A DNA stretch of 64,000 nt from a virus. The notes below the pieces were generated by a model. The model was given only the letters and a program-made list of their open reading frames with translations. It did not search any database and was not told where the DNA came from. Both the position numbers and the translations under genes were made by a program. Of this stretch, positions 1 to 30,786 are shown piece after piece. The stretch is from positions 1 to 64,000 of IMG/VR virus record IMGVR_UViG_3300030060_008003; one strand, written 5' to 3'. Within the stretch, counting starts at the first letter, position 1. Every line of letters starts with the position of its first letter.

Positions 1-23
1 AAATATTCTTTAAATGTCCTCAT
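1..23 (-). CDS. 5' end of a late gene, cut by the window edge
   Basis: An ATG at 21-23 on the minus strand overlaps the TGA stop of the preceding gene (ATGA arrangement) and opens a frame that runs off the window. Only MRTFKEY plus part of a codon is visible. The peptide resembles the start of T4 capsid-targeting sequences (MKTYQEF...), which fits the neighbouring gene group. The rest of the protein cannot be seen. Confidence 0.5.
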
Positions 24-1228
24 GACCCGGGTTTATCTTTTTGAAAGTTAGCTGAACTAAAATCTAATCTATTAACCAGCTTAACAGCATTACCATCTCT
101 ATCAACTGCTACATATCCCTCCGGAGATGTTACTCTCAACACACCTTCACCCTCATCAATGAAGTGCTTTGTGTTATATACAGCATTATTATACTTGTTA
201 ATGAAGATTTGCTTAGCTTGTGACAATAAACTACTAACTTTAAACAAATTAACTATGTCATCCTTTTGAGATTCAAATTGAGCCGTCTTTTGCTTAAGTG
301 TCTCTTCTAATTTTTGTTTCCCGCGTACAGATTTTCTTTTATCTATTTCTTTTTTAATCCTAGTAGTATACCACTCAATAAAGTTCCTATATGATTCTTC
401 AGGATCATTTAAAAACTTACCTTCTCTAATTTCTGTATTGATATAAGGATTGAGAAGGTCGGAAGGTAGGTCTTTATAATCTATTTTAATTGAATCAGCA
501 GTCTTAATTAAGTCTCTAACCTGTTTTACTTCATCTTTTGTTAAATTTACAATGCCAGTATCGTCTTTAAAGAAAGCATCATCAAACCAAACACCAGGCA
601 CTTTATTCAACCGGTTAACCTTAGCACCAAATGATGCAGGGCTGTCTAATCCATCGTATTCAGTGTGGAATATAATACCAAACACAGAGTTAGCTATCTG
701 TTTACCTAAATCCGAGTCAGCTTCTACTGCATACTTAATTGTATTTGGTTGAAAGGTATAATGTACCTCCCCGTCGATGTTCTCTTTCTTAACTGATGAA
801 GAGTCAAACATGAAATCACCTTGCATTATGTTTTTAATACCTAATTTAGGTAAATGCTTAAGAGCTTTTTTAAGCTTATCTGCTAAACCAGGAGAATGTC
901 CATGATTTATTTCAATATCTTGCTCGTTATAGTTAATTTTAGGATCTCTATTAAAGATAGACTTGGTACCAACAAAGAATTTACCGTTATCAGGGTGTTT
1001 TCCAACAAAGATAGCAGGTGCGCCATCCCATTTTACTGTAGTACCGATCTTTCTTTTACTCTTTCCTTGTAAATGACCTAATAAATTAACTAAAAAGCCC
1101 TTAGCTTGATCATAACCACCCTTACCTTTAGTAAGAATTAGCTCTTCTAAGTGTGTGAGATGTGTATTAGCTTTACCTTCTTCAAGGAGCTCTAAATAAC
1201 TTTCGTAATATAGTTTAAATTTTTTCAT
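20..1228 (-). CDS. Nucleotidyltransferase/ligase-like protein with a candidate capsid-targeting N-terminus
   Basis: About 402 residues. K66 sits in KWDGAPA, which fits motif I (KxDG) of the covalent nucleotidyltransferases (DNA/RNA ligases, capping enzymes). It is followed by QGDFMFD near residue 138, a possible motif III, and a basic C-terminal half. The start at 1228 (MKKFKLYY) was preferred over an in-frame ATG 120 nt upstream because it begins 4 nt after the stop of the preceding gene. The first 17 residues (MKKFKLYYESYLELLEE) look like a T4-type capsid-targeting peptide with an LLE prohead-protease site. The family is uncertain: motifs IV and V are not clear and no substrate can be inferred. 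It is the penultimate visible gene of a minus-strand late run. Confidence 0.7.
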   Translation of the reverse strand: MKKFKLYYESYLELLEEGKANTHLTHLEELILTKGKGGYDQAKGFLVNLLGHLQGKSKRKIGTTVKWDGAPAIFVGKHPDNGKFFVGTKSIFNRDPKINYNEQDIEINHGHSPGLADKLKKALKHLPKLGIKNIMQGDFMFDSSSVKKENIDGEVHYTFQPNTIKYAVEADSDLGKQIANSVFGIIFHTEYDGLDSPASFGAKVNRLNKVPGVWFDDAFFKDDTGIVNLTKDEVKQVRDLIKTADSIKIDYKDLPSDLLNPYINTEIREGKFLNDPEESYRNFIEWYTTRIKKEIDKRKSVRGKQKLEETLKQKTAQFESQKDDIVNLFKVSSLLSQAKQIFINKYNNAVYNTKHFIDEGEGVLRVTSPEGYVAVDRDGNAVKLVNRLDFSSANFQKDKPGS

Positions 1229-1232
1229 TTTA

Positions 1233-2582
1233 TTATATTGTGACCTGGTAAGCTGCTTTAAAGGCTCCCGATGTATTACTACCCGGGTAGAATATGTATA
1301 TTCCATCCCCCTCCGGTAAAAACCTGACTTTCCCGCTATTAATAGCATCTAGAATATTTTTGTAATCTTTTACATTTATATAATTAGCTAAGCTAAAAGT
1401 ACCTTCTTCCATTCTTGCAGGTCTATCCGGGTTAGGCACGCCTTTAATTTCTCCCTGCTTATATCCTTTTTGAAATACCGTCAAGAGAATATCAAATCCC
1501 TTTTTCGAAGCTTCATACGAATCCGGATCCCCTGGATTACCATCTCTTCCATACTCATAAAGCATAAGTCCACCAAAGTGTTGGATTCGTGTTTTCGCAT
1601 CTTTGCGCTCTGTTTTGGCATCTTGCTCTAAAAACATTTTTAACTGCTCTGTATTTTGAAACGTCTTAGTAACTAAATCAAAATTATACTCCATATTAAA
1701 ATCATCTATAGATAGATCCGACTTATTAGCTAGGTACTCAAATTTATCACGATCCTTCTTAAACCCACCCTTTCTACTACTAATAATTCTAGCTTTACCT
1801 GTTTTTACCTCTACATTTAACCCGTTAGGTAATTTTAAGTCACCAACATCACCTTTAAAGGCCTCTGTAAACAAACTCATCGCTAATTCACCATCTCCAA
1901 CACCCACTGTCCCTTCTTGAAAAGACTTAGAAAATATTTCATTATATACTTGCGATCTATCTTCTTCATTTTCTAAAAATGCTAATTGAGGCTTCATAAC
2001 GTCATATAAATTTACCTCCCCAAATGGTTCTTCAGTTATTGCCTCTGTTAAAACTTTTTTATTTTCTATATCCGTACCTAATTTAGCTAACAACTTATCA
2101 TCTAGGTCATACCGCTGTAATACCATCTTTACAAAGTTATATGTTTGCTCGTTATCAAACCCGGATTTTTTGACTAAGTCTCTTATGGCTGTAGCTGCTT
2201 CATTTGTTAATAACTCCCCTTGGTGAGTGTCTGCAATATAACCTATTCCTTTAGTTATTTTTTCAAAGCATTTCCGAGCTTCATCTTCGTTCTCTATTTC
2301 TCTACACTTCCTAAATGCAGCCTTAAGCTTTTCCGCTCCATCCCTTTCAGTAAATTCACCCTCTGCATCTAGCTCATCAATATCCTCTTCACTATTAATT
2401 TGCTTACCAATAAACGATAAATTAGCTCGTATAGGCTGCTCCCCACTAAGCTGTTTTCTTACACGTGCAAAGCCCGGCGCATCTCCTAAATTAAACTTTT
2501 CACCCAACACATGAAGGTGTCTACGCGGTGGAATCTTACCACGTACCTGCTTTTTATAAATGTCTTCTAATGACCACTGCAT
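1233..2582 (-). CDS. Unknown late protein with a possible PD-(D/E)XK nuclease core
   Basis: 449 residues, acidic in the first third (a run rich in E and D near residues 65-80). Around residues 235-265 the order GDGELA...GDLKL...VEVKTGKARI matches the D...ExK pattern of PD-(D/E)XK nucleases: Asp, about ten residues, then Glu-x-Lys on a predicted strand, with an upstream helix carrying GE. This is motif reading only. It sits 1 nt downstream of the 115-residue gene and just upstream of the KWDG protein, so it is probably cotranscribed. Unlike its neighbours, its N-terminus (MQWSLEDIYKK) is not a clear capsid-targeting peptide. Confidence 0.7.
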   Translation of the reverse strand: MQWSLEDIYKKQVRGKIPPRRHLHVLGEKFNLGDAPGFARVRKQLSGEQPIRANLSFIGKQINSEEDIDELDAEGEFTERDGAEKLKAAFRKCREIENEDEARKCFEKITKGIGYIADTHQGELLTNEAATAIRDLVKKSGFDNEQTYNFVKMVLQRYDLDDKLLAKLGTDIENKKVLTEAITEEPFGEVNLYDVMKPQLAFLENEEDRSQVYNEIFSKSFQEGTVGVGDGELAMSLFTEAFKGDVGDLKLPNGLNVEVKTGKARIISSRKGGFKKDRDKFEYLANKSDLSIDDFNMEYNFDLVTKTFQNTEQLKMFLEQDAKTERKDAKTRIQHFGGLMLYEYGRDGNPGDPDSYEASKKGFDILLTVFQKGYKQGEIKGVPNPDRPARMEEGTFSLANYINVKDYKNILDAINSGKVRFLPEGDGIYIFYPGSNTSGAFKAAYQVTI

Positions 2583-2583
2583 G

Positions 2584-2931
2584 TTATTGTGCGTCTAAGT
2601 CTTCAAGTTCTTGTTCAACCTCTTCATTTGAAAATTCGATCAATCTTTCAATCGTTTCAATGACCTTTCTAGGCTGTGTCCTACCAAATTCTTTATTCAC
2701 CTGTGCAGCAATGTTAATATCTTGCATAGCTGGTGCATATATAAAGGCATTAGTTAACAGATCAGCGACATATACCTCACCTTCAGGTGAAATACCAGTA
2801 GGCTCTGGGGGAATGTCCTCTGCATCAGTAGCATCAGCTTCAACATCAACGTCAACATCGACTTCTTCGATTTCGTCCTGCTCTGAATAAAGCTTTTTAT
2901 ACTGTTCAAATAATTGTAACGTCTTTTTCAT
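2584..2931 (-). CDS. Small acidic late protein with candidate capsid-targeting peptide
   Basis: 115 residues, not recognised. The N-terminus MKKTLQLFEQYKKLYSEQDE contains LFE and YSE sites of the prohead-protease type. It is followed by an acidic stretch of alternating D/E and V (residues 20-35) and a C-terminal helix rich in E. A small acidic protein of this sort could be a prohead core component such as the T4 gp67/gp68 group, but that is inference from composition and context. It lies 5 nt after the preceding gene and has no late-promoter octamer of its own. Confidence 0.65.
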   Translation of the reverse strand: MKKTLQLFEQYKKLYSEQDEIEEVDVDVDVEADATDAEDIPPEPTGISPEGEVYVADLLTNAFIYAPAMQDINIAAQVNKEFGRTQPRKVIETIERLIEFSNEEVEQELEDLDAQ

Positions 2932-2936
2932 GATTT

Positions 2937-3350
2937 TTATACTTTTGCGTCGTCTATTGCGTTAGATAACTTACCAGTTTGTTGTTTATATAGTTCTACA
3001 GCCTTTTTTGCAAGGTCAGATCTCATTTTTACAGCCTTTTTAGCTTCTTGCGGTGCTGTTCCCATTGCTCCTGCAATCTTACCCATTACACCACCCTTAG
3101 CTTGATTAGCTAACTTATTAACTTCCTTATCAACATCGTATGGATTTTTATTTCCCATGGTAACTTCTTGATCTTCTACCGGAATATCAGGGGCATACTC
3201 TCGCTTAAAGCTATCAAAAATATCGAAAGGGCTACTCACACCAAACATATCAAAAGAATCGACTATTTCACCGTTTACGTCTCTTAACTCCACAGTATAT
3301 TTATCTTCACCTGGTCGATTCTCTTCTACCAGTCTTAGAAACTTACTCAT
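2937..3350 (-). CDS. Small late protein, possible internal head protein
   Basis: 137 residues, no known family recognised. It begins MSKFLRLVEENRPG, with an LVE site shortly after the start, then an acidic first half and a Lys/Ala-rich C-terminal half (residues 70-130). A late-promoter octamer ends 5 nt before the ATG. It starts a run with the next two genes downstream on the minus strand. Confidence 0.7.
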   Translation of the reverse strand: MSKFLRLVEENRPGEDKYTVELRDVNGEIVDSFDMFGVSSPFDIFDSFKREYAPDIPVEDQEVTMGNKNPYDVDKEVNKLANQAKGGVMGKIAGAMGTAPQEAKKAVKMRSDLAKKAVELYKQQTGKLSNAIDDAKV

Positions 3351-3355
3351 GTATA

Positions 3356-3363
3356 TATTTATG
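3356..3363 (-). promoter_or_regulatory. Late-promoter octamer
   Basis: CATAAATA on the minus strand, 5 nt before the ATG at 3350. Confidence 0.55.
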
Positions 3364-3841
3364 GAAGTAGTGAGAGTTTTATATTTATATTAGATAGAAA
3401 CTCACTTTCAATTTGCTGTAATTCGTATCGTCGAAGGAAAAGTCTAAACTTATAGAAAGAAACAGCTGATGTATCTTTCTTTTTAAACGAAATGTAGTCT
3501 CTTTCTTCTAAAAACGTATCAAAGCTATCTTCACTGTATGATATATTAGTAGGTAGTGCATTAAAAATACGCTTAACAAGTGTATGTTCAATTGTTTTAC
3601 CATCTGTCTTGTAGTAAAACCACTTCTTATTACTTGTTTTTGAACATACTCTTATAAGCTCTTTAATAATGAAGTGTATACCAAGCTTATTCTTTTCTTT
3701 TCGAGTTAATTTTAGCTCATGCTCGGTAATATAAAGAATATATTCATTGAAAGACTTATTAAGACATTTATTAAGGTTAATAAACTCAAAACCACGTACA
3801 GTATCATTTACGCCTTCCGATTCTGACGTTGATAATTCCAT
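3359..3841 (-). CDS. Hypothetical protein overlapping the GIY-YIG gene
   Basis: 160 residues from the ATG at 3841 (MELSTSESEGVND); an ATG four codons earlier is also possible. Either start overlaps the end of the GIY-YIG gene by about 40-50 nt. The sequence is Lys/Phe/Leu rich and likely helical, without motifs I can name. Its tight linkage suggests cotranslation with the nuclease gene. Confidence 0.6.
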   Translation of the reverse strand: MELSTSESEGVNDTVRGFEFINLNKCLNKSFNEYILYITEHELKLTRKEKNKLGIHFIIKELIRVCSKTSNKKWFYYKTDGKTIEHTLVKRIFNALPTNISYSEDSFDTFLEERDYISFKKKDTSAVSFYKFRLFLRRYELQQIESEFLSNINIKLSLLP

Positions 3842-4202
3842 TGTAGTAGTCATCTCTTAGTAATACCTCTTCTTCAAATTGTAATCTAGTTTCATGATAA
3901 CTCAACTCCCACTTGGAGTCACACCATCTGAGGATTTCAAACTTAAAATTACCCTTTCCGAGTATTCTTATATGTTCGTTGAGTTCGTTTGATGAAGAAG
4001 TATAGGTCTTCCAGTCAGTTTCTATTTTTTCGTGTCGTTTATTCTTTCTACCCTTTAAAGGAGGACGCTTTCTTATTGACTGGCACTGTTTTTTACCAAT
4101 ATACTTCTTATCATTAGTAAGATTTGTTATCTTATAAATGAAACCATAAGGTAAATCTACATTTTCTTCAAGAATTCCTTCCCAGTGACCTAAATCTTTC
4201 AT
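3804..4202 (-). CDS. GIY-YIG family nuclease (Seg-like)
   Basis: 132 residues from the ATG at 4202, chosen because it overlaps the preceding stop as ATGA. The N-terminal GIY-YIG core is clear: GFIYKITN (residues ~20-27), then KKYIGKKQ about ten residues later, followed by Arg residues in RKRP and a helix WKTYTSSSNELNEHI. The C-terminal part (EEEVLLRDDYYNGIINVR) has the conserved Glu and Asn expected for metal and scaffold roles. Such proteins in T4-like phages are often free-standing homing nucleases. Here it lies inside a late operon and has no obvious intron or target site beside it. Confidence 0.85.
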   Translation of the reverse strand: MKDLGHWEGILEENVDLPYGFIYKITNLTNDKKYIGKKQCQSIRKRPPLKGRKNKRHEKIETDWKTYTSSSNELNEHIRILGKGNFKFEILRWCDSKWELSYHETRLQFEEEVLLRDDYYNGIINVRIGRRK

Positions 4203-4978
4203 AAATGATATCGCATAATACACTCTTGCGTAGGGTCATTAAATTTAGTATTAAAATGCATATATTCTAATGGTATATCTCTTGGCGATATAGATTGTTT
4301 TTTATTTGTAGCTAAAATAAACCCATCACCGAAAGCCCATCCAGGTGCCGGCTGAGGTACATCAAACACCACGTGGCCATTATTTTCTAATTCACTCAAC
4401 ACCCTTAAATGTTTGTCACCCCCATGTGTAGAAATAAAATAATAACCAATTTTATCATATAAATCTTCATCAATAATTTCCGTAATTAACTCTTCTTCCC
4501 CGCCCTGAATATCAATATGCAAAAAATTTAAATAATCTAACTTATTTTCTGTAAAAAGCTCACGCATTGTAATTTTCTTCGTGCTAATATTGTCTTCTGG
4601 AATTGTCTCATCTTCATGAGCCTCTTTATCGAACGCGCCTGTGTACCCGTGATATACTTTTACATTTTCACCTTTAAATCTATCCTCTAAGTCTTGAACT
4701 CTATGTAACATAGCATCAGTACACACATTAAAGCTTTTTTTGTTAAACAAAGAAACTACCTTACGAAAAATATGCGTATACTCACCGTCATCAGCACCCA
4801 ATTCAATCATACTAACAGTGCTATTTTTAGCGCACTCCTGTTCTATAAGATAAGAAAGCAACCTTACCTGAAGTACCTCGAATGCTTGAGTTAAATAATT
4901 AATGCCTCTCTGTTTACATTCTTCTTGAGTTAAAGCACCTGCGAAACTATTGTTGAGATATTTATCTACGACCGCCAT
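4199..4978 (-). CDS. FkbM-type SAM-dependent methyltransferase
   Basis: 259 residues. The SAM-binding motif I is MIELGADDGEYT (about residues 57-68), and LNFLHIDIQGGEEELI (about 150-165) is the characteristic FkbM post-motif carrying the Asp and Glu. Family members O-methylate sugars and related small molecules. A late octamer ends 6 nt before the start, so it is probably expressed with structural genes. It overlaps the GIY-YIG gene by 4 nt. The acceptor is unknown; virion or host-surface glycan is one possibility given three glycosyltransferases in the window. Confidence 0.8.
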   Translation of the reverse strand: MAVVDKYLNNSFAGALTQEECKQRGINYLTQAFEVLQVRLLSYLIEQECAKNSTVSMIELGADDGEYTHIFRKVVSLFNKKSFNVCTDAMLHRVQDLEDRFKGENVKVYHGYTGAFDKEAHEDETIPEDNISTKKITMRELFTENKLDYLNFLHIDIQGGEEELITEIIDEDLYDKIGYYFISTHGGDKHLRVLSELENNGHVVFDVPQPAPGWAFGDGFILATNKKQSISPRDIPLEYMHFNTKFNDPTQECIMRYHL

Positions 4979-4984
4979 ATGGCG

Positions 4985-4992
4985 TATTTATC
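4985..4992 (-). promoter_or_regulatory. Late-promoter octamer
   Basis: GATAAATA on the minus strand, 6 nt before the methyltransferase ATG at 4978. Confidence 0.55.
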
Positions 4993-5426
4993 TACCATTT
5001 CTTACAACTCCAATAACCAGCAGAAAATTTATCCTTCTTTTGATCACACTTATGGCGCGCCCGGAACGACTTTCTACGTTTAGGATTGCTCTTTTTGATC
5101 TTCATATTTGGATCTCCAAAACGAACAATCTTTTCTTTACCATCTTTACAAGCTTTAACAACGAACTTCTTAGAACCACCTGATGTACGGCGAGGACTGT
5201 TACACTTCATACGATCCTTATCGACTTTCTCAGCGTCTTCAGCAGGAATCTCCTCATCATCCGGATCATTAGGGTTATTGTAAGTAGGATCAGACCTATA
5301 TTTTGGACCTCCACGGCCATCTGAATCAGCATCGCCTTTTCTCAACTGACCGGCAGAGTTATAATGCTTACCCTTTGGTGCTTCTTTAGCTTCTAAGATT
5401 TGCTTTACTAATTCGTCGAATTGCAT
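4992..5426 (-). CDS. Basic Cys-containing late protein with candidate capsid-targeting peptide
   Basis: 144 residues. The N-terminus MQFDELVKQILEAKEAPKG has an ILE site followed by AKE. The middle is acidic (DPDDEEIPAEDAEKVDKD) and the C-terminal third is strongly basic with four Cys (VKACKDGKE, RARHKCDQKK, YWSCKKW). The basic Cys domain looks like a nucleic-acid-binding module that recurs in marine T4-like phages, but I cannot assign a function. A perfect TATAAATA stands 5 nt upstream of the start. Confidence 0.75.
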   Translation of the reverse strand: MQFDELVKQILEAKEAPKGKHYNSAGQLRKGDADSDGRGGPKYRSDPTYNNPNDPDDEEIPAEDAEKVDKDRMKCNSPRRTSGGSKKFVVKACKDGKEKIVRFGDPNMKIKKSNPKRRKSFRARHKCDQKKDKFSAGYWSCKKW

Positions 5427-5431
5427 AATAA

Positions 5432-5439
5432 TATTTATA
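5432..5439 (-). promoter_or_regulatory. Late-promoter octamer
   Basis: TATAAATA on the minus strand, the exact T4 late consensus, 5 nt before the ATG at 5426. Confidence 0.65.
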
Positions 5440-5871
5440 CTAACAATGATAATTTAAATAGCGTTGTAGTGCTTTCGCGTAATGAGTACCTTTATCCTTC
5501 AACTTACTCTTCGCACCTCTCACCTTACTACAAGACAATTTACCTAATCTCTTTTTTAAGATACCAGGCTTAACAGGCTTATGCACATCTTCAGCGTTTT
5601 CACTCTTTTTCTTTTTTTTCTTCCAGTTAACACGCTTAGGTCCTTTTTTCTTATACATCTTACCCTTAATACTCTTACAAGCCGCTTTAGTTGGTCGACA
5701 AGCCGGGTAACTACCACCGGATTTTTTAGATTTACGACCACATGGGCCACCAGTCTTGCAATTTACCCACCCTTTAAACTTCTTACCAGTCTTAGGATCA
5801 GTTCCACCTCTCTTAAACCACTGTCGCAAAGAGTCACTAGCTTCAAGAACCTCTTTTTGTGACATGCTCAT
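5440..5871 (-). CDS. Basic Cys/Lys-rich late protein (DUF5872-like)
   Basis: 143 residues. It starts MSMSQKEVLEASDSLRQW, with a VLE site near the start. Residues ~15-70 follow the pattern RQWFKRGG...GWVNCKTGGPCGR...YPACRP...ACK, which resembles a small Cys-rich domain found in phage and giant-virus proteins (I believe DUF5872; family name from memory). The rest is Lys-rich. Probable nucleic-acid binder. The start overlaps the stop of the gene at 5868-6254 by 4 nt. Confidence 0.75.
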   Translation of the reverse strand: MSMSQKEVLEASDSLRQWFKRGGTDPKTGKKFKGWVNCKTGGPCGRKSKKSGGSYPACRPTKAACKSIKGKMYKKKGPKRVNWKKKKKKSENAEDVHKPVKPGILKKRLGKLSCSKVRGAKSKLKDKGTHYAKALQRYLNYHC

Positions 5872-6254
5872 TTCTTTTTCCAGATTTTTCCCTGTCTACA
5901 CCTTACGATTGCTCCAGATTTGTAAGCAGAAGTCTTTTTACCATAAGCGGAATCAGCCCTACGCTTACATCTATCAGCTTTCTTTTTCTTTTCTGCATCT
6001 TCCTCAGGAAACCCCTCTTCGTTCTCCTCTTTTCTTTTCTTTTTCTTCTTCTTACCTGCTGTACCTTTACGTGTTTGGACTGCTCCAAGAGCCTTGGGTA
6101 ATCTAGCATCACCTGGAGCATAAGTATCACCAGAACTTATATCTCCGGGTGGATTGTATGAAGATCCGCTACCAAGTGCACCTCCAGCACCAGCTGTCAT
6201 CTCTTCTTTTAGCATTCTTAAAAAGATACGTTCAAATTTGCCACTTGATTCCAT
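5868..6254 (-). CDS. Lys-rich late protein, first gene of the minus-strand cluster
   Basis: 128 residues. N-terminal MESSGKFERIFLRMLKEEM is a candidate capsid-targeting peptide with an LKE site. A Gly/Ser/Pro linker follows (residues 22-55), then a long Lys run, and a C-terminal basic domain with two Cys (DRCKRRADSAYGKK...VRCRQGKIWKKK). It reads from a perfect TATAAATA 8 nt upstream, inside a divergent intergenic space of only 24 nt shared with uvsY. Confidence 0.75.
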   Translation of the reverse strand: MESSGKFERIFLRMLKEEMTAGAGGALGSGSSYNPPGDISSGDTYAPGDARLPKALGAVQTRKGTAGKKKKKKRKEENEEGFPEEDAEKKKKADRCKRRADSAYGKKTSAYKSGAIVRCRQGKIWKKK

Positions 6255-6262
6255 TATAATTA

Positions 6263-6270
6263 TATTTATA
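6263..6270 (-). promoter_or_regulatory. Late-promoter octamer
   Basis: TATAAATA on the minus strand, 8 nt before the ATG at 6254, in the divergent gap with uvsY. Confidence 0.65.
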
Positions 6271-6278
6271 ATAATAGA

Positions 6279-6674
6279 GTGGAATTGCTAAAAAAGTATA
6301 TGCAAGAAATTGGTGAAGATCTTGTACTAAACGATCTCAACCTTAAACAACAACAGCAAAGACTCCCAGCTCGTAAGCATTTTTGGGTTGGTAGACTTGT
6401 AGAAGCAAAGATTAAACGCAATAAACTGATTGCTCAGAAGAGTAAGCTTAAAAAGGACCTAGTTAAGAAGGTAATTGCTGATTCTCCTGTACGTATTAAT
6501 CAAGCTTCAGCAGAATCAGCTGCTGAAAGGTATGAATCTGTCGCAAAACTTAACGATAACATAAAAGAACAAGATACTATTATAGAATATCTTGAAAAGG
6601 TCGAAAAAATTCTTAGTAATATGCATTGGGAGATCAAAAATGTTATCGATATGAATAAAATGGAGCAATATTAA
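6279..6674 (+). CDS. uvsY: UvsY-like recombination mediator
   Basis: 131 residues, close to the 137 of T4 UvsY, which loads UvsX onto gp32-coated ssDNA. The sequence is mostly helical and charged, with a basic middle (AKIKRNKLIAQKSKLKKD) and a C-terminal helix (KLNDNIKEQDTIIEYLEKVEKIL...). It ends EIKNVIDMNKMEQY, in the manner of UvsY C-termini (...IKHIQDMRAFE in T4). It starts with GTG at 6279. Its direct linkage to uvsW (TAATG overlap) copies the T4 order. Assignment rests on length, shape and neighbourhood. Confidence 0.65.
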   Translation: MELLKKYMQEIGEDLVLNDLNLKQQQQRLPARKHFWVGRLVEAKIKRNKLIAQKSKLKKDLVKKVIADSPVRINQASAESAAERYESVAKLNDNIKEQDTIIEYLEKVEKILSNMHWEIKNVIDMNKMEQY

Positions 6675-8095
6675 TGATAACTTTTGATTATAACCCCTCT
6701 ACACGTAAGATGTTACTAAAAACAGAGGATCTAGATCTGTTTAACCGTGTAAGACATCATTTTAGTATTATAAATGATGCAGCGCGCTTTGGTAGACGGT
6801 ATGGTCGATATGCACCTCAAAGAAAGTATGCTATAACTCCTGCTGGTGCATGTGAAGTTGGTTTATATTGGGAGATCAAGAAGTTTTTAACTAAAGAAGA
6901 TACAGAAACTACCGATAAACTACAAAAAGTGTTAAAGGTAGGTAAAGATATAGAGCTTTATAAAGACTTTGCATTTGATTTAAGGGAATATCAAGAAGAT
7001 GTTATTAAAAAAGCCCTTAAACTCGGCACCGGTACTTGTGTTTTGGGTACTGGCGCCGGTAAAACCTTTACAACAGCAGCGTTAATTGAAAATTACTTTA
7101 GAGATAGTAAGGATAAAGATACATTTAAGTGTGTTGTATTAGTTCCAGACTTAGGACTAGTTACTCAAACGTATGATGAGTTCTTAAACTGTGGTACTAC
7201 CTTTAAAATAACTAAATGGACGGGTAAAATTAAGCCAGACCTAACTGCAAACGTTATTATTTGTAATATAGGTATTGTTCAGAGTAGGTTTGAACAAAAT
7301 GACTGGTTAAAGCACATTGATCTACTTATAGTTGATGAGTGTCATAAGATAAAATCGTCTAATAAGATTAGTAAGATAGTATCTAGAATAAGAACACCTA
7401 ATAAGTATGGCTTTACTGGTACTCTCCCGGAGAACAACTTAGATAAGTGGTCAATTATAGGTAAATTAGGACCAGTTATATACGAAAAGACGAGTTATGA
7501 ACTTAGAATAGAAGATTACCTCGCTAATGTTAACGTTAAGATCTTAAATTTAGATTATCGTATACCACCGCCATATAATAGTGATAATTACTACAGAGAA
7601 GAGCTAGATTACATATATGAAAGTCATTTTAGAAACGATTTTATTACTAAATTATGTTCTAAACTCGAAAATAACACCCTAATACTTGTTAATCATATTT
7701 CTCACGGGGTAAATCTATCCGAATACCTCACTCAATGTAAAGATAAGCAAATTTACTTTATTAGAGGTGAAGTTGAAGTAGAAACACGTGAGGATATAAA
7801 GAGGATAATGGAGAAAGATAATGACGTTATATGTGTAGCAATGAGTTCTATTTTTTCCACCGGGGTTAATATTAAGAATATACATAATATTATTTTTGCC
7901 TCTGGTGGTAAGTCATTTGTACGTACAGTACAATCCATTGGCCGTGGTTTGAGAAAGCACAACTTAAAATCTAAGCTTATTATATTTGATCTCTGCGATA
8001 GGCTAAGATATGGTATTAGACACTGTGAAAAGCGTAAAGAAATTTACGACATAGAGAAGATAAAGTATAGTGAAACTAATATTGTTGAAAAATAA
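6674..8095 (+). CDS. uvsW: UvsW-like superfamily 2 DNA/RNA helicase
   Basis: 473 residues (T4 UvsW about 500). Helicase motifs appear in order: REYQED upstream (~105), Walker A GTGAGKT (~125), DECH box in LLIVDECHK (~221), motif III TGTL (~248) and motif VI QSIGRGLR (~418). UvsW unwinds branched DNA and R-loops and switches T4 from origin- to recombination-dependent replication. The ATG overlaps the uvsY stop, and GGAG 8 nt upstream provides a Shine-Dalgarno site, so translation is probably coupled. Confidence 0.93.
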   Translation: MITFDYNPSTRKMLLKTEDLDLFNRVRHHFSIINDAARFGRRYGRYAPQRKYAITPAGACEVGLYWEIKKFLTKEDTETTDKLQKVLKVGKDIELYKDFAFDLREYQEDVIKKALKLGTGTCVLGTGAGKTFTTAALIENYFRDSKDKDTFKCVVLVPDLGLVTQTYDEFLNCGTTFKITKWTGKIKPDLTANVIICNIGIVQSRFEQNDWLKHIDLLIVDECHKIKSSNKISKIVSRIRTPNKYGFTGTLPENNLDKWSIIGKLGPVIYEKTSYELRIEDYLANVNVKILNLDYRIPPPYNSDNYYREELDYIYESHFRNDFITKLCSKLENNTLILVNHISHGVNLSEYLTQCKDKQIYFIRGEVEVETREDIKRIMEKDNDVICVAMSSIFSTGVNIKNIHNIIFASGGKSFVRTVQSIGRGLRKHNLKSKLIIFDLCDRLRYGIRHCEKRKEIYDIEKIKYSETNIVEK

Positions 8096-8112
8096 AATTT
8101 TTATACTATAAT
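8085..8112 (+). promoter_or_regulatory. Sigma70-type promoter for gene 55
   Basis: TTGAAA (8085-8090), 16 nt, TATAAT (8107-8112). The ATG of gene 55 lies 7 nt after the -10 box, so the transcript would start at the start codon. Confidence 0.55.
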
Positions 8113-8119
8113 TTAACAG

Positions 8120-8566
8120 ATGGCCGAAAAAAAGAAAAAAGAAAAAAAACCATATTATATAGAGCCAAAGGTCTTTAAAGAATCACTACAAAAGTACTAC
8201 GATACAGATATTCTTACAGATGATTTGGCGGAAAACATTAAAAAAATAGCATACGGTTTAAGCTATAACGCATCTTTCATCAATTATACGTATAAAGACG
8301 ATATGATTGGTGATGCACTTATTAAAATGTATTCAGCATTAAAACATAAAAAGTTTAACTTTGAAAAAGCTACTAATCCTTTCTCATATTTTACTACTAT
8401 TGCATATCATGCATTTATTAATAGAATAAAAAAGGAAAAGAAACATCATGAAGCCGTTACAAAATATAGAGAGCGTGTATACGAAGATTATATGTCTAAT
8501 CCGGACAATACTCACGGACACGTGTATGTAAAACCACCCGACGAGGAAAATTCTTTTGAAGATTAA
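8120..8566 (+). CDS. 55: Late-transcription sigma factor gp55
   Basis: 148 residues; shorter than T4 gp55 (185). After a Lys-rich start come helices typical of sigma region 2: DDMIGDALIKMYSALKH and FNFEKATNPFSYFTTIAYHAFINRIKKEKKH (~residues 55-115). gp55 recruits host RNA polymerase to late promoters of the TATAAATA type together with the clamp gp45. The acidic C-terminus (PPDEENSFED) is where T4 gp55 carries its clamp-binding end. It is the only sigma-like gene in the window and the obvious reader of the late octamers listed here. Confidence 0.9.
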   Translation: MAEKKKKEKKPYYIEPKVFKESLQKYYDTDILTDDLAENIKKIAYGLSYNASFINYTYKDDMIGDALIKMYSALKHKKFNFEKATNPFSYFTTIAYHAFINRIKKEKKHHEAVTKYRERVYEDYMSNPDNTHGHVYVKPPDEENSFED

Positions 8567-11391: not shown

Positions 11392-11395
11392 ACTA

Positions 11396-11403: not shown

Positions 11404-11405
11404 AG

Positions 11406-12643: not shown

Positions 12644-12644
12644 A

Positions 12645-18795: not shown

Positions 18796-19543
18796 ACTAG
18801 TATTAACTCTTAGCGGTGGAATGGACTCGTCTGTGCTGTTGTATATGGCACAAGATCGAGGTTATGAAGAAATACATACTCTAACTTTTGATTATGGTCA
18901 GCGACATAAACGTGAATTAACGTGTGTTAATAAACAAATTAATAATTTTAACGAGCAGTTTTCCGGTTGGTTTAATTTAGAGGTAACTAATAAGGTCTTA
19001 GATGTAAAATACATTAGAGATATTGCTCCTACTTCATCTTTAACTAATGAAGATATTGATAATCCCAATATTAGTGAAATGGCCGGTGATGCACAACCTG
19101 TATCATATGTACCGTTTCGAAACTTAATGTTTTTATCTATCTGCTCTTCGTATGCTGAGAGTGTTGGTGCTGATACTGTTTGGTATGGTGCTGCTCAAGT
19201 AGATTCGCTAGCTGGTTATTGGGACGGTAGTGAAGAGTTTGTAGATGTAGTTAATAATGTAACTGATCTTAATAGAGAAAATAGGATTGTAATTGAAGCC
19301 CCGTTACTTGAAATGTCTAAAGCTGAAATTATTAAAGAGGGTGCTAGACTTGGTGTTAAGTTTAAAGATACTTGGACTTGTTATTCGGATAGAAAAGATA
19401 AACTAGCAGATGCTACTACGCCGTCGAGTAGTATGAGAGTAAAAGGGTTTGTGGATGCTGGTTTAAAAGACCCTATTGCTTACATCCAACAAGAAAAGTT
19501 GGATAAGCTATACGAAGAAAATAATTGTAAAGAGTGCGCTTAA
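18785..19543 (+). CDS. queC: QueC, 7-cyano-7-deazaguanine (preQ0) synthase
   Basis: 252 residues. The N-terminal PP-loop SGGMDSSVLLY (~10-20) and TLTFDYGQRHKRE (~34) are those of QueC. PYVPFRNLMFL is seen as SYVPFRNLMFL (~108). The C-terminal zinc ligands are TWTCYSD and NNCKEC at the end. QueC converts carboxydeazaguanine to preQ0 using ATP and ammonia. In phages it can feed 7-deazaguanine DNA modification that resists restriction. No queD, queE, folE or dpdA lies in the window, so those steps come from elsewhere or from the host. It converges on the minus gene, sharing TTAA at the stops. Confidence 0.93.
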   Translation: MKRKLVLTLSGGMDSSVLLYMAQDRGYEEIHTLTFDYGQRHKRELTCVNKQINNFNEQFSGWFNLEVTNKVLDVKYIRDIAPTSSLTNEDIDNPNISEMAGDAQPVSYVPFRNLMFLSICSSYAESVGADTVWYGAAQVDSLAGYWDGSEEFVDVVNNVTDLNRENRIVIEAPLLEMSKAEIIKEGARLGVKFKDTWTCYSDRKDKLADATTPSSSMRVKGFVDAGLKDPIAYIQQEKLDKLYEENNCKECA

Positions 19544-21150
19544 AGACCGTAACGTCTAAGCTCTTCTAACTGCCAAGATGTCTTTGGCTTATATTTTTCT
19601 TTAAAGGACTGATTCTTAGTCTCGGTCCTTTTATTACGCTTATCAGAAGCAGTTTGCTCAGTAAGATATACTGATGTATTGGTTTTATGTGACTCAAGCA
19701 TAGGTTGCATCCTTATAGCCTCATCACCACCTTCTTCATCTTCAATCATATTTTTAGCTAAGTCTTCTTTATCTTTAGTAACCATAGCTTTAAGAACTTC
19801 TTCATAATCGTCAGGCACATCTTCATCTGATTGTGGTCCGATATCAAAGTCATCAAACTCATTATCTTCACTAGCAGCATGCATAATAATTACTGTATCT
19901 TCATCTACTCCGTACTCTTTAGTACCATCACCCATATCATCCCACTCACCAGAGATACAATCTTTTACGTCAACACCAGCATGATTGCAAGCGTCTTCTA
20001 AAGAGTCAAATGTTTTATCTTTCATCATAATTTGACCATGTTGTCCTCCTACGGAGCCTACGGAAAATTTAATGTTAAACTCATCCTCTGCGCCTTCATA
20101 ATTACCTCTCATCTTAGCTAATACAGCACCAGCCACTCTTTCTCCAGCTGCTTTTGAGCCATACTTTTTACCAGCGCTTTTTGCTATTTTAGAAAAATTC
20201 TTTCCCGGTTTACCGATATCTTTTCCTGCTCTAGCCTTCTTAGCACTAAGATCTTCTGCATCTTCTACTTCAGTAATTCCTCCACCTTCTTCACCCATTG
20301 AATATTCATCCGGCTCTTCAGGACTATCAAAACCATATCCCATCTCCTCATAATCCTCATCAGGTGACATAACAACAACTACACTATCACTAATTCTATC
20401 AACGTCTCTCTTTAACGCTGCTTCAATTTTATCAATACCGTGTGCTGTAACAGCCTTAGCTAATGGAGTATCTGGATCAACCGAAAACTGAACTGTATTA
20501 CCACTAATATCTAACCCATCTTCATTAGCATACTTTGAAACAATATTACCAACATCTTCAACACGCTCTGCATCTCTGATTTTAATCTCAATAAACGTTG
20601 TTGGATCTTCTTTTGACATTTGTAAACTTTGAGCTAACTCAGATTCTGCAGCATCCATTTGACCTACAGCACCTTCAACAGCATCACCCATATCTTCACC
20701 TGCTTTAATGTCTTTAGCTAATTCCAAAGCAGCTTTTTGTGCTGCATATTTTTCTTCCCTACCTCTATCAGTTGTTGCTCTATTAATATAACGAGCGAGA
20801 TTATCTTCAACCTCTTTAGCTATCGCATCTTTATTTTGTTCGATAACATCCTCTTTTGCATCCAATAAGGCTAGAAGATTTTTCTTTTTGGCAGCAAACC
20901 CAGCTCCTCTCTTAGCAGCAGCTAATTCATCATCGCTTATAAGCTCTAAGTTATACAGTGCTGTTCTAATAAAGTTAATTGTATCCAGCGGAGCAGAACT
21001 GAACCCAGCTGATCTTAGATCTTTAGTAACACCACCAAAAGAAGGATGGTATTTAGCATAAGGTGATTTTTTAGCTTCCGTAAGGAACTCTGCCCTGTTG
21101 AATAAATCATTAAAGCCACTAAAATTATCGGTGAAATCGAAGGAACTCAT
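19540..21150 (-). CDS. Large acidic late protein, candidate internal head protein
   Basis: 536 residues, unrecognised. It has alternating acidic and Ala/Lys-rich segments: a helical first third (residues 70-180), acidic patches near 265-300 and 420-470, and a basic patch RAGKDIGKPGKNFSKIAKSA (~307). The N-terminus FNRAEFLTEAKKSPYAKYHP (~17-36) contains LTE-A, a prohead-protease-type site after an F-rich helix. Perfect TATAAATA lies 6 nt upstream. A late, acidic, possibly processed protein would suit a head-interior role. Isolated on the minus strand between plus-strand replication genes. Confidence 0.75.
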   Translation of the reverse strand: MSSFDFTDNFSGFNDLFNRAEFLTEAKKSPYAKYHPSFGGVTKDLRSAGFSSAPLDTINFIRTALYNLELISDDELAAAKRGAGFAAKKKNLLALLDAKEDVIEQNKDAIAKEVEDNLARYINRATTDRGREEKYAAQKAALELAKDIKAGEDMGDAVEGAVGQMDAAESELAQSLQMSKEDPTTFIEIKIRDAERVEDVGNIVSKYANEDGLDISGNTVQFSVDPDTPLAKAVTAHGIDKIEAALKRDVDRISDSVVVVMSPDEDYEEMGYGFDSPEEPDEYSMGEEGGGITEVEDAEDLSAKKARAGKDIGKPGKNFSKIAKSAGKKYGSKAAGERVAGAVLAKMRGNYEGAEDEFNIKFSVGSVGGQHGQIMMKDKTFDSLEDACNHAGVDVKDCISGEWDDMGDGTKEYGVDEDTVIIMHAASEDNEFDDFDIGPQSDEDVPDDYEEVLKAMVTKDKEDLAKNMIEDEEGGDEAIRMQPMLESHKTNTSVYLTEQTASDKRNKRTETKNQSFKEKYKPKTSWQLEELRRYGL

Positions 21151-21649: not shown

Positions 21650-22312
21650 ATGTGTGCAATTTTCGGATCGTTTGATAAGACTATGTTAGAGGTCTTATAC
21701 GACGCAAATAAGGAACGTGGTAATTTTGCTAGTAGTATTGTATGCTTGTCAGATGATGATCAGTATATTGCTAAATATGAAGGTGATATAAATTTTGATA
21801 AATTTAACTATGCTGGTAGAAAAGACATAGAATATCTTCTAGGGCATGTACAAGCTCCTACCTCAGCTAAAAGAACTTGGAATTATAATACATCACATCC
21901 GTTCGAATCTATGACTTGGTTAGTGAGTCATAATGGCGTTCTAACGAATGAAAAAAAGCTAAGAAGAAAGCATACAAGATTTTTAGAAAATCCTGTTGAT
22001 ACAGCTGTTATAGTTGAGTTACTTGAGAAATATTCACAAGTTAATAAAACACCTATCAATACTATTAAGCAAGTACTACCGATGCTTGAAGGTTCGTTTG
22101 CTTTAAGTGTTGTTAATTGTGATACGAACGATGTGTTTATTGCTAGAGTAGGATCTGTATTACATTACAATAACAAAGGTAACTACACTACAATGCCAGG
22201 AGCTGGTTATAAGGTTTTACCAGAAGGTGTAATAATGAAGTTAAATAAGAGAACAAAACGTTGGAATAAAGCTGGGACTTTTGAAGTTAAGTCTCCATTT
22301 ACATTTGTATGA
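21650..22312 (+). CDS. Class II glutamine amidotransferase
   Basis: 220 residues, one Ntn-type domain. After Met removal Cys2 (MCAIFGSF) would be the N-terminal nucleophile. LLGHVQAPTS (~62), FESMTWLVSHNGVLTNEKKL (residues ~85-104, glutamine site) and PMLEGSFALSVV (~144) match the GATase-II fold of GlmS/PurF/AsnB. It frees ammonia from glutamine, normally for a synthase partner. None is fused here; QueC, 2.1 kb upstream on the same strand, is one ammonia-using candidate. Overlaps the next gene by 4 nt. Confidence 0.88.
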   Translation: MCAIFGSFDKTMLEVLYDANKERGNFASSIVCLSDDDQYIAKYEGDINFDKFNYAGRKDIEYLLGHVQAPTSAKRTWNYNTSHPFESMTWLVSHNGVLTNEKKLRRKHTRFLENPVDTAVIVELLEKYSQVNKTPINTIKQVLPMLEGSFALSVVNCDTNDVFIARVGSVLHYNNKGNYTTMPGAGYKVLPEGVIMKLNKRTKRWNKAGTFEVKSPFTFV

Positions 22313-28544: not shown

Positions 28545-29322
28545 CTTCCATATTTACTTTACGCTTAACGCTGTTAGCTCCTACGTGAAGCAGTTTGTTC
28601 CTGATACTACAATATTTGTATGGGATGAAAAGCAAGACTATAAACCCAATATACGAAAGAGTATCCTTAAGGAATATAAGGGTAATCGATCTAAAGATTC
28701 TTCACCTCATCAAAATAACGAGGTAATTAAGTCCATACTCTACTCAATGGGTATCAATTCTATCTTTCCTCGCGAACTAGAGGCAGATGATATTGTTGCA
28801 TACATTTGTAGAGAGCACGAAGGTTCAAAAGTAATTATCTCAGTAGATAGAGACTTTCTGCAGTTAGTTAGTTCCGAGTGTACCTTATACGATCCGATAC
28901 GTAAGAGATTCTTTGAAGATAGTAATTTTGAAGAGCAGACAGGATATAAGGATGTTGAGCAATGGTTTACTGCAAAATGTTTAACAGGTGATAAGTCGGA
29001 TAATGTACCAGGTATACCTCGCTTTGGTAAAGCTTCAGTTAAAAAATATTTTGAAGATCCTGGATTTATGCTAGATGATTCTCAACGCGAAATATTCAAA
29101 CGAAACGTAGATATATTTTGTTTAGATAAGTATGAGTCTCTACCTGATGAAGCACAATACTATAAAGATCAATTAGCTGTTAAAGTTGATCCTTCATATA
29201 AGGTATTTCTTGAATATTGTGAGGAATATTCCTTTAAGAGAATTCTAGATAAAAAAGAAGATTGGCATAATTTGTTTTTCATGAAAAGCTTATATAATAA
29301 GTTAAATGATATCGCTTCCTGA
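28438..29322 (+). CDS. rnh: RNase H / 5'-3' exonuclease (FEN family)
   Basis: 294 residues (T4 Rnh 305). FEN/T5-type motifs: LIIDGNNLIHRTYH (~3), FVWDEKQDYKPN (~59) with KEYKGNR, the acidic cluster LEADDIVAYI (~115), IISVDRDFLQLVS (~134) and the H3TH region CLTGDKSDNVPGIPRFGKASVKKYF (residues ~180-205, key Asp in GDKSDN). It removes RNA primers from Okazaki fragments. Directly upstream of the primase gene, overlapping it by 17 nt. Confidence 0.94.
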   Translation: MKTLIIDGNNLIHRTYHTAKIQSKKTKNHTDYQVSNFHIYFTLNAVSSYVKQFVPDTTIFVWDEKQDYKPNIRKSILKEYKGNRSKDSSPHQNNEVIKSILYSMGINSIFPRELEADDIVAYICREHEGSKVIISVDRDFLQLVSSECTLYDPIRKRFFEDSNFEEQTGYKDVEQWFTAKCLTGDKSDNVPGIPRFGKASVKKYFEDPGFMLDDSQREIFKRNVDIFCLDKYESLPDEAQYYKDQLAVKVDPSYKVFLEYCEEYSFKRILDKKEDWHNLFFMKSLYNKLNDIAS

Positions 29323-30367
29323 AGATTTTGTTATACTAAAATTCTTTGAGCTAGGTTTTTATCCTAAGTATAACAAATTTAATAACGTCTACCAATGCAG
29401 CTGCCCTATCTGCAGAGAAGGTAAGTCGTTAGGTAAAAAAAGACGATGTTATTATATACCTAAAAATGAGAATATATTTTGTCATAACTGTGGATGGTCT
29501 GGTAAACCGTTAAGATGGATAAAAGAGGTATCAGGTACTACAGATAAAGATATAATTAAAGAATTAAAAGATCATGTTCCGGACGCTGCAGATATTATTG
29601 AAAGAAGTGAAGATACTAAACCAAACTTTAAAGTCGCTACCTTACCTAAGGATAGTATTAATTTGTCTGATGAGCTTCAGCTTAACTTTTATAATAGTAG
29701 TAACGTTGTTACAGCTGTTAGACATCTAATTAAAGAGCGGCGATTAGATACAGCGATAAATAAACCTTCATCGTTATATGTATCATTAACTGATATGGTA
29801 CATAAAAATAGACTCGTTATACCCTTCTTTAACGAGCATGATGAAATTGAGTTCTATCAAACAAGGACGGTTCTAAACAAAGATAATAAAGTTAAACCGA
29901 AATACTTAGGAAAGGTAAATGCTGAAAAAACTCTCTTTAATATTGATCGTGTAAGTAATGATCATGACTGCGTTTATATATTTGAAGGACCGATTAATGC
30001 TTTTTTTACGAAAAATTCAATTGCTGTAGCAGGTATTACTGAACGTGGTAAATCATTTACACAGCGACAAGAGGAGCAGTTAAATACAACGCTTAAATGG
30101 TATGATAAGACGTGGATACTTGATTCACAGTGGGTTGATCAAGCATCCTTAGTAAAGTCTGAAGTACTACTCAAACAAGGGGAGAGAGTGTTTATATGGC
30201 CGGAAAAGTTTGGCAAGAGATTTAAAGACTTTAATGATATTGCTATTGCTTGTAAGATAGATGAAATAAAGTGGAGCTTTATAGAAAAAAATACCTTCGA
30301 CGGAATCGAAGGTATTGTGAGATTATCTGAGATTAAAAAGTACCGTAATCAAACGTATTTAAATTGA
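29306..30367 (+). CDS. 61: DNA primase gp61
   Basis: 353 residues (T4 342). An N-terminal zinc-binding domain has two CxxC pairs, CSCPICREG (~30) and FCHNCGWSG (~58), followed by WIKEV. The Toprim core has VYIFEGPINAFF (~222, catalytic Glu) and TWILDSQW (~271), where the second Toprim acidic motif is reduced to a single Asp. It synthesises primers with gp41. Ends convergent with a minus-strand gene, overlapping by 19 nt. Confidence 0.92.
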   Translation: MISLPEDFVILKFFELGFYPKYNKFNNVYQCSCPICREGKSLGKKRRCYYIPKNENIFCHNCGWSGKPLRWIKEVSGTTDKDIIKELKDHVPDAADIIERSEDTKPNFKVATLPKDSINLSDELQLNFYNSSNVVTAVRHLIKERRLDTAINKPSSLYVSLTDMVHKNRLVIPFFNEHDEIEFYQTRTVLNKDNKVKPKYLGKVNAEKTLFNIDRVSNDHDCVYIFEGPINAFFTKNSIAVAGITERGKSFTQRQEEQLNTTLKWYDKTWILDSQWVDQASLVKSEVLLKQGERVFIWPEKFGKRFKDFNDIAIACKIDEIKWSFIEKNTFDGIEGIVRLSEIKKYRNQTYLN

Positions 30368-30786
30368 GCATTTCCAGTTTGAGCGATATAACCCTTAAAG
30401 GACTCATTTAGAGCAGCAAGCTCTGTAGCAACTCTAGCAATTTTACGTTGCTCGGAAGCTTTCATACGGTCAAAGATTGTATCGGGTTCGGCATTAGCTA
30501 ATAAAGTTTGAATAGAGTCTGGAGAAGAGCCGTTTAAGTACTCTAGAAACTGCTCAATTTCACCAACCCAACCTTCAAGCTTAGTTCTCATAGCCGCGTT
30601 GCGCTCACTAACAGCTTGTGCAGCCTTTACATTTGGATCTTCATCAACAGCAACTTCATCAACTTCAACATCTACGTCAAAATCACCAGCTTCAGTATTA
30701 TCCTCTAACTCCGCTTCAAAAGCTGCTCTCTCCTCTTCAGCTTGCTCGTTAAGAGATTTTAAAAAACGTTTCTCAAATTTGGTCAT
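30349..30786 (-). CDS. Acidic late protein with candidate capsid-targeting peptide
   Basis: 145 residues. The N-terminus MTKFEKRFLKSLNEQAEEE shows an LNE site in an F/L-rich helix. An acidic Val/Asp/Glu repeat (DFDVDVEVDEVAVDED) at ~34-49 is nearly the same in style as that of the 115-residue protein at 2584-2931. A helical C-terminal half follows. It fits a prohead core or internal protein, by inference. Late octamer 5 nt upstream. Confidence 0.7.
   Translation of the reverse strand: MTKFEKRFLKSLNEQAEEERAAFEAELEDNTEAGDFDVDVEVDEVAVDEDPNVKAAQAVSERNAAMRTKLEGWVGEIEQFLEYLNGSSPDSIQTLLANAEPDTIFDRMKASEQRKIARVATELAALNESFKGYIAQTGNAQFKYV

Follow-up and report, generated by a model that had tools for sequence, protein, structure and literature searches.

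The window analysed here, bases 1-64000 of the 91.5-kb viral record IMGVR_UViG_3300030060_008003 (itself a fragment), holds a cluster of minus-strand genes whose products begin with peptides reminiscent of the capsid-targeting peptides, or tags, of phage T4, which carry a site for the prohead protease. We consider it likely that these genes, taken as a group, encode varied cargo targeted to the capsid in the T4 manner. Lower confidence attaches to four of them taken singly, namely 2584, 2937, 19540 and 30349 (genes and their proteins are denoted by the lower coordinate), whose sequences make them candidates for membership in the tagged set. At the level of protein families, there is good support for a T4-type targeting peptide that carries a prohead-protease site and stands on unrelated cargo: this reading, put forward for nine proteins in an initial annotation, agrees with an excess of N-termini that follow the T4 rule, with tags on enzymes reported from virions, with the exchange of tags in front of constant bodies, and with a census of IMG/VR. 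The annotation had also called the set undescribed. This holds for the cargo, of which no description was found in a literature search, and not for the mechanism, which is that of T4; indeed, its use for a variety of proteins in T4-like phages has been suggested before, in a review (PMC9026906). Thus, the mechanism is known, and the cargo and the phages are new.

The rule by which the peptides were recognised derives from T4. According to the same review (PMC9026906), ten residues suffice to target internal protein (IP) III, residues 4 and 7 of the capsid-targeting peptide matter for targeting and residues 8 and 10 for processing, and an Asp at position 10 stops the processing of IPIII, not its targeting. 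The strict rule asks for an aromatic residue or Leu at positions 4 and 7, a hydrophobic residue at 8 and Glu at 10; its positions were taken from the T4 data, and the tags of cyanophage S-CREM2 had been seen beforehand. It fits 17 of the 2239 called N-termini from 11 T4-like records, 1.3 being expected from internal segments (p 4e-14), or 14 of 1985 without T4, and it retrieves IPII, IPIII and gp61.1 of T4. Relatives of two window proteins conform to it: MINFSKYITE in Melnitz and MKTLKQYITE in locus L037 for protein 20, and MKSFKYYFFE in locus L027 for protein 4992. The version of gene 1 in the related IMG/VR contig G001 has F4, Y7 and F8, but Asp at position 10. Among the nine listed proteins, 2937 is the sole one fitting the strict rule, the remaining window tags being shifted or longer forms of the rule peptide.

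An independent tag model, trained only on the T4 IPI/II-III tags and eight cyanophage tags detected by mass spectrometry (MS), ranked the proteins against 8626 internal segments with p values of 0.0020 (19540), 0.0056 (20), 0.0057 (4992), 0.0059 (2584), 0.021 (5868), 0.025 (30349), 0.088 (5440), 0.11 (gene 1, scored on G001), 0.20 (2937) and 0.70 (1233); these per-protein values are flattered, because the proteins had been picked by eye. Free of such selection, five of the 95 called N-termini of the record lie above the 99% level of internal segments (1.0 expected, p = 0.003), two of them being absent from the initial list. Simple site patterns were discarded as tag detectors for being too loose: [LIVMF][TASL]E[AEGDNS] within the first 36 residues gave no significant enrichment in any of 10 genomes, and an extended F..F pattern gave a weak excess only.

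The census searched IMG/VR with a DNA pattern for MK-x-F-x-x-F-(L/I/F/M)-x-E-A and returned at least 120 stretches, a sample. Among the matches listed, 118 of 124 stand at the start of an open reading frame (ORF) of at least 60 residues, six are short and none falls inside a longer ORF (for the first 80 loci alone, 78 of 82 matches start ORFs). In a full scan with a Glu-to-Lys control pattern (93 stretches), 25 of the 93 matches mark the beginning of such an ORF, 56 are short and 12 internal. The Fisher p value for this contrast, among the matches listed, is 8e-28, although the comparison is imperfect because the base composition of the two patterns is not the same. From the first 80 loci of the 120 listed came 77 tagged proteins of at least 70 residues, which fall into 26 clusters after removal of the tag (blastp E<1e-3), so that the idea of a common tag on unrelated bodies was confirmed among the matches listed. 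In Pfam, these 77 comprise 19 cytidylyltransferase-like proteins, five DUF5661, three DUF6267 and three AAA_33/zeta-type kinases, with single members of DUF6321, WYL_2, lytic transglycolase and GNAT.

A second line of evidence came from families, thinned at 80% identity over 30 residues, in which tag and body behave as separate units. In the 4992 family, the window protein carries MQFDELVKQILEA before KEAPKGKHY, and the L027 relative has MKSFKYYFFEA before nearly the same body. In the ten sequences of the 5440 family, the body is nearly invariant from E-A-S-D-S-L-R onwards and the peptides preceding that Glu vary (MSMSQKEVL, MTQKEIL, MSKFEQALESYLE, MKFDELANFYLN), some relatives showing FxxLxxxYLNE-type tags. 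The 1233 family (25 sequences, 20% mean identity) offers the converse case, its conserved columns being a 28-residue tag with its final Glu and a PD-(D/E)XK-like core. Such a pattern would be expected in sequence if selection maintained the address tag and left the bodies free to vary. Across 31 relatives, the DUF6267 core ANTHLTHLEEL mostly follows directly after a hydrophobic-x-Glu site, before which stands a long tag (close relatives), the ten-residue T4-like peptide of L037, or the tail of another domain. Indeed, several IMG/VR relatives (L041, L046, L050, L053, L055, L062, L078 and L044) encode a cytidylyltransferase, a middle domain and DUF6267 in a single ORF, with MLTE, FLTE or LLTE-type hydrophobic-x-Glu sites before each part in many sequences. 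To judge from their sequence, such fused ORFs look like cargo polyproteins that the prohead protease would cleave.

Published virion data provide the third line. Table 3 of the S-CREM2 report lists 52 virion proteins (PMC10665884). With the published starts, the rule fits three enzymes among them, an S-adenosylmethionine (SAM) hydrolase (MKDFDSFLEE), an APH/ChoK kinase (MKRFDAFLTEE) and a cytidylyltransferase (MKNFSSFLTEA), together with ORF13 (MKDLHSFLTEQ) and ORF136 (MQTFSMFFSED), and a virion "Cas9" protein bears a shifted tag, FASFMAEA. The rule thus fits 5 of 28 virion proteins that are non-structural or of unknown function, compared with a single one of the 131 called genes whose products went undetected (p 6.5e-4), and 5 of 52 over the entire table (p 0.0075); gene calls were made in this analysis, the denominators being 183 called genes for S-CREM2 and 185 for S-SZBM1 (published ORFs 219 and 218). 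The cytidylyltransferase family, which includes gene 1 of the window, has been reported from virions of S-SM1 (PMC3037559), S-SCSM1 (PMC9602691), S-CREM2 (PMC10665884) and S-SZBM1 (PMC9146016); in S-SM1 it is gene T4-GC190, and in S-SCSM1 one marked virion protein in its record. It carries a tag in every T4-like phage, four in all, for which virion detection is published and the N-terminus was examined, the starts being MKKFSAFLNEA in S-SM1, MKSFLQFLKEA in S-SCSM1, MRFRQFIIEA in S-SZBM1 and the one given above in S-CREM2. DUF6267 bears a tag in the window, G001, HTVC008M and Melnitz. In S-CREM2 and S-SZBM1 it has none, and neither virion table, as far as available, lists it. As a side observation, the protein annotated in S-CREM2 as a CRISPR-Cas9 nuclease (ORF12, L192 7704-10313) matched no Pfam family at E 0.01 and only an unknown one among PHROGs, and on this sequence evidence the Cas9 label looks doubtful.

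Several results weigh against capsid targeting. In the window's record the strict rule fits one of 95 N-termini (0.06 expected, p = 0.055), and it fits 1 of 228 in G001 and none in HTVC008M (0/187), P-HM2 (0/187) and S-PM2 (0/182). Gene 1 was listed as carrying a protease site, but a clear (L/I)xE is missing; its close relative in G001 reads MRTFREYFEDMETR. The cytidylyltransferases of P-HM2 and S-PM2 are tag-less; that of S-PM2, as Sullivan et al. note (PMC3037559), went undetected in its virions, in an S-PM2 study that also missed known structural proteins. In S-SZBM1, a simpler tag pattern occurs in 1 of 30 virion proteins against 3 of 155 others (p 0.51), and S-SZBM1_191 (MKSFKSFLSES) is tagged, yet it does not appear in the part of the virion table available. 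The authors of the S-CREM2 (PMC10665884) and S-SCSM1 (PMC9602691) studies themselves raise the possibility that virion enzymes are carry-over after caesium chloride purification. Finally, the evidence for this very phage consists of sequence. The first of these results, together with the lack of enrichment for the looser site pattern and the fact that 5440, 2937, 1233 and gene 1 are no outliers in the independent model, would suit the notion of commonplace amphipathic N-termini in which LxE triplets arose by chance and which were selected by eye. This notion is barely credible in view of the contrast between census and control, of the tags that change before a fixed Glu in the 5440 family, and of the agreement of the tags with published MS tables. 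Carry-over, with the tag serving another function such as membrane or host-target binding, appears very unlikely: the tag matches the four positions found important in the T4 mutational study (PMC9026906), and the tag-less DUF6267 proteins of S-CREM2 and S-SZBM1 are those that the virion tables lack.

As for the window itself, the ORFs named in the initial annotation all exist and all lie on the minus strand (Table 1). Two needed correction. Of the gene at 1, only the first codons are present (20 down to 1), the rest being cut off by the end of the record; its complete relative in G001 (MRTFREYFEDMETRVERIALLPGGFKPPTKGH) has 190 residues, and the family matches the cytidyltransferase phrog_395 weakly (E 0.0069). 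The gene at 20 starts at 1228 and not, as relatives agree, at the longest-ORF start, 1348. The description of the nine N-termini as short F/L-rich helices ending in (L/I/V/F)-x-E proved too uniform. In 5868 the hydrophobic stretch begins only at residue 7, in 19540 the site is found only at residue 25 (FLTE), and 5440 lacks any aromatic residue in its start MSMSQKEVLEA; because of these departures, the description cannot stand for all nine. A tenth protein, encoded at 1233-2582 between two of the listed genes, had been missed, and its conserved N-terminus ends in VLGE at residue 28. Relatives of 2584 have tags such as MKTLKLIEQYKTLLE, followed by Q after the predicted cut point. Among the loci examined, 19540 has one full-length relative (G001) and partial matches to L034 and L025, and 30349 has one relative, in G001.

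Table 1. Tagged genes of the window, with their tags and related features.
Feature	Coordinates	Strand	Remarks
Cytidylyltransferase gene, first codons MRTFKEYF..., cut by record end	1..20	-	Tag with F4, Y7, F8
DUF6267 protein, ligase-type nucleotidyltransferase candidate	20..1228	-	PF19782; KWDG residues 66-69
Tag of 20: MKKFKLYYESYLELLEE	1178-1228	-	Start and site conserved
Fast-evolving PD-(D/E)XK-like nuclease candidate	1233..2582	-	Conserved core residues
28-residue tag of 1233: MQWSLEDIYKKQVRGKIPPRRHLHVLGE	2499-2582	-	Conserved in 25 sequences
Acidic protein	2584..2931	-	Tag MKKTLQLFEQYKKLYSE, 2881-2931
Protein with tag MSKFLRLVEE	2937..3350	-	Tag, 3321-3350
Lys/Cys-rich protein, phrog_7595 domain	4992..5426	-	Tag MQFDELVKQILE, 5391-5426
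Lys/Cys-rich protein, nearly constant body from E10-A11-S12	5440..5871	-	Short tag MSMSQKEVLE, 5842-5871
Lys-rich protein	5868..6254	-	Tag MESSGKFERIFLRMLKE, 6204-6254
Capsid N-arm copy within 5868 protein: TAGAGGALGSGSSYNPPGDISSGDTYAPGDARLPKAL	6087..6197	-	Score 101 vs G001 capsid protein
536-residue protein, function not assigned	19540..21150	-	N-terminal segment ending FLTE, then A, 21076-21150
Acidic protein beside primase-like ORF	30349..30786	-	Tag MTKFEKRFLKSLNE, 30745-30786

Regarding what the cargo may do, protein 20 belongs to DUF6267 (PF19782, E 3.6e-98, 329.8 bits, cut-off 27), and its K66-W-D-G69 is invariant in 26 sequences; KxDG is a ligase motif. In its predicted structure (mean pLDDT, the predicted local distance difference test score, 73.8), residues 66-221 match RNA/DNA ligase nucleotidyltransferase domains with Z up to 6.0 in many of the best 50 rows, the top match being an Hsp70 chain (Z 6.3); the structure-match tool warns that a Z under 8 can reflect a common arrangement. 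A Foldseek search with DUF6267 returned nothing below E 0.001. The model and the motif make it a candidate ligase-type nucleotidyltransferase. In 1233, G229, E232, G247, D248, E258 and K260 are conserved in 25 sequences, and E...GD...ExK is the core motif of PD-(D/E)XK enzymes. Its model (pLDDT 74.4) matches MspI (Z 3.9, rank 5) and NhoI (Z 3.3), both weakly and below unrelated helical chains, and the protein is a candidate PD-(D/E)XK-like nuclease. As a whole, the cargo set would point to NAD or nucleotide metabolism, to chemistry on RNA or DNA ends and to cutting of DNA, all as infection begins.

The small basic cargo brought an additional element. Behind its tag, 5868 reads TAGAGGALGSGSSYNPPGDISSGDTYAPGDARLPKAL, and the capsid protein of G001, behind its own IEE site, reads STAGATPGGSFGNGATVGGVYNPITNDVNSSDSYATGDARLPKVL; the two align with a score of 101, while 500 shuffles reach at most 44. 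The same likeness links T4 gp61.1 to the arm of T4 gp23 (69 against 42) and S-CREM2 ORF160, listed in the virion table (PMC10665884), to its own capsid protein (95 against 44). When eight genomes were scanned for ORFs resembling the capsid arm of the same genome, Syn9 (98, next 38), P-HM2 (100, next 44) and S-CREM2 (95, next 39) each produced one clear hit, and G001 a bare first place (45, next 40). The scan yielded no clear mimic in S-PM2 (41, next 40) or S-SZBM1 (38, next 35); the arm matches of Melnitz (37, next 35) and HTVC008M (30, third) are not significant by score and provide positional leads only. The KVP40 mimic was found separately (86, next 42). By these arm copies, several T4-like phages encode a Lys-rich protein on which cleavage, if it occurs, would bare the N-arm of their own capsid protein.

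The expectation that each mimic would score best on its own capsid protein was only partly borne out, the mimics following arm differences broadly. That of P-HM2 reaches 100 on its own arm, no other arm giving it more than 47; the arms of Syn9, S-CREM2 and S-SZBM1 are alike, with cross-scores of 64-72. Conversely, gp61.1 scores 74 on the arm of KVP40 and 69 on that of T4, and on the arm of G001, the only capsid arm compared among the IMG/VR relatives, the mimic of G001 itself scores 45 against 101 and 92 for those of records G000 and G002. The mimic gene adjoins primase in T4 and, by reading, in KVP40; one gene separates them in Syn9 and S-CREM2, and two in P-HM2. Window 5868, unlike the gp61.1 group, lies far from its primase-like ORF (29306-30367, by reading). 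An F..F tag precedes the arm in T4, and a shifted form does so in the window lineage and S-CREM2; none was found at the called starts of the Syn9, P-HM2 and KVP40 mimics. Compared directly as profiles, 5868 and gp61.1 show a weak relation (probability 39%, 12 columns); what links them is that each matches a capsid arm. On these sequence features, a tag followed by a capsid N-arm, 5868 would work like gp61.1, as an analogue rather than an established ortholog, the window's own capsid gene lying outside the record. The C-terminus of 5868 resembles ORF160 moderately (probability 63%, E 7e-5 over 21 columns); a relation of the 5440 family to ORF160 was tried and is weak (probability 4%, E 0.011).

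Traces of this likeness exist in annotation: a PHROG named major head protein matches S-CREM2 ORF160, and gp61.1 matches a "putative major capsid protein" of a Cronobacter phage. Similarly, Syn9 NC_008296 154429-154953 (BSV9_gp190), of 174 residues, is labelled "major head protein", its likeness to the capsid N-arm being confined to the first 27 residues. A brief literature search found no paper on the capsid-arm likeness, and the mimic is probably unexplored. We propose tentatively, with T4 gp61.1, KVP40, Syn9, P-HM2, S-CREM2 ORF160 and window 5868 as members, that T4-like phages may encode a Lys-rich capsid-arm mimic that would enter the prohead, be cut by the protease that also processes the major capsid protein and display a copy of the mature N-arm of the latter, perhaps docking on the inner lattice and tethering cargo or DNA. 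These arm copies, the match of ORF160 to a major-head-protein PHROG and the Lys-rich or acidic nature of the small tagged proteins could also suggest a structural role in head or core for the tagged proteins, which would happen to have prohead-protease sites, like gp22, gp67 or gp68, and would not be delivered cargo. We regard this as unlikely, given the enzymes among the 77 tagged bodies listed (19 cytidylyltransferase-like, three kinase, three DUF6267, one GNAT and one lytic transglycolase) and the SAM lyase among those of S-CREM2.

Targeting of delivered cargo supposes a prohead protease, which the initial annotation expected outside the window. A search with PF03420 did not find the S77 protease in the window's own 91.5-kb record, nor was gp23 found there, so that this expectation held in relatives and not in the fragment itself: the protease is present in 7 of 8 relatives searched (long IMG/VR records reached via the DUF6267 gene and picked from 80 loci for the length of their contigs), gp23 in 6 of 8, and the protease in 7 of 7 reference phages. 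The ORFs of the record read as those of a T4-like marine myophage. The genes that we take, by reading, for replication genes lie mostly on the plus strand, and those for tail and baseplate, among them the long ORFs at 32-57 and 60-64 kb, on the minus strand. A near-match search of window positions 1-20000 against phage records gave no match.

From these elements, the following course of events can be proposed. Late in assembly, the peptide, through its aromatic or Leu residues near positions 4 and 7, would bind the prohead core; if so, the attached protein would become enclosed. The S77 protease of the phage would then cut after the Glu of the hydrophobic-x-Glu site, freeing the cargo in the head, to be ejected together with the DNA. 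The cargo would vary by lineage, comprising here a cytidylyltransferase, the putative DUF6267 nucleotidyltransferase, the putative PD-(D/E)XK-like nuclease and a number of small basic proteins; among the latter, 5868 would expose a copy of the N-arm of the capsid protein.

The scheme shares with T4 the short N-terminal peptide with F/Y at 4 and 7, a hydrophobic residue at 8 and Glu at 10, the longer tag form seen in IPI (MKTFKEFTSTTTPVSTITEA), and the S77 protease in the relatives of the window. It differs in its cargo, which includes enzymes, in several tags that are longer or degenerate, and in that cleavage is predicted from sequence. The virion cytidylyltransferase/NMNAT of cyanophages S-CREM2, S-SCSM1, S-SM1 and S-SZBM1 is a homologous protein with the same kind of tag, whereas the window version is shorter, to judge from G001, and has a weaker site; the virion enzymes of cyanophages also include a kinase and a SAM hydrolase, and the available passages of those papers give no packaging mechanism. 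Like 5868, T4 gp61.1 has a T4-type tag, a copy of the mature capsid N-arm and a Lys-rich tail, but it is encoded beside the primase gene, and the two arm sequences diverge in step with the respective capsid proteins. The ejection proteins of phiKZ-type phages are likewise packaged in the head and cleaved by a prohead protease (PMC9026906), which for the present proteins is a prediction; their cleavage motif is S/A-x-E and they belong to a different phage group.

Some further modules were observed. C-terminal domains are exchanged among the basic cargo proteins: that of window 4992, FGDPNM...YWSC, stands likewise at the end of a 5868-type protein (L011 5958-6443) and occurs in the tagged cytidylyltransferase of Melnitz (13662-15614). 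A module LGLxSDGHGGWYDxxGxxVAKTxxGxLKF lies behind the tag in many cargo proteins (census proteins among L222-L300, the S-SM1, Syn9 and S-SCSM1 cytidylyltransferases, S-CREM2 ORF14 and an ORF in the S-CRM01 locus L208), and may, from its sequence, serve as a further element for packaging or ejection. Another N-terminal motif besides the tag, hydrophobic-x-E-A-Y-x-x-hydrophobic (LAEAYxxI), is found in 5 of 228 N-termini of G001 (0.14 expected), at 17625, 19292, 19773, 20254 and 75206 of this record (that of L012), and at 74551-75693 of the window's record, outside the window; it is possibly another address tag. The G001 contig (196,877 bases) holds similar gene copies at its two ends (3377-7241 and 192740-196640), so that it may contain an assembly artefact or a mixture. 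ORFs at 18785-19543 (+) and 21650-22312 (+) of the window and at 143633 of G001 read like QueC, a class II glutamine amidotransferase and QueE, and they may point to a deazaguanine pathway of DNA modification.

If the proposed targeting is correct, what has been a T4 curiosity would become a delivery route widely used by marine T4-like phages, and a sequence rule would predict which enzymes reach the host with the DNA, before the transcription of any phage gene. It would also give a packaging mechanism to published and unexplained virion enzymes, such as the cytidylyltransferase, the kinase and the SAM lyase, and the N-arm mimics would open the function of T4 gene 61.1 to direct tests in a laboratory phage.

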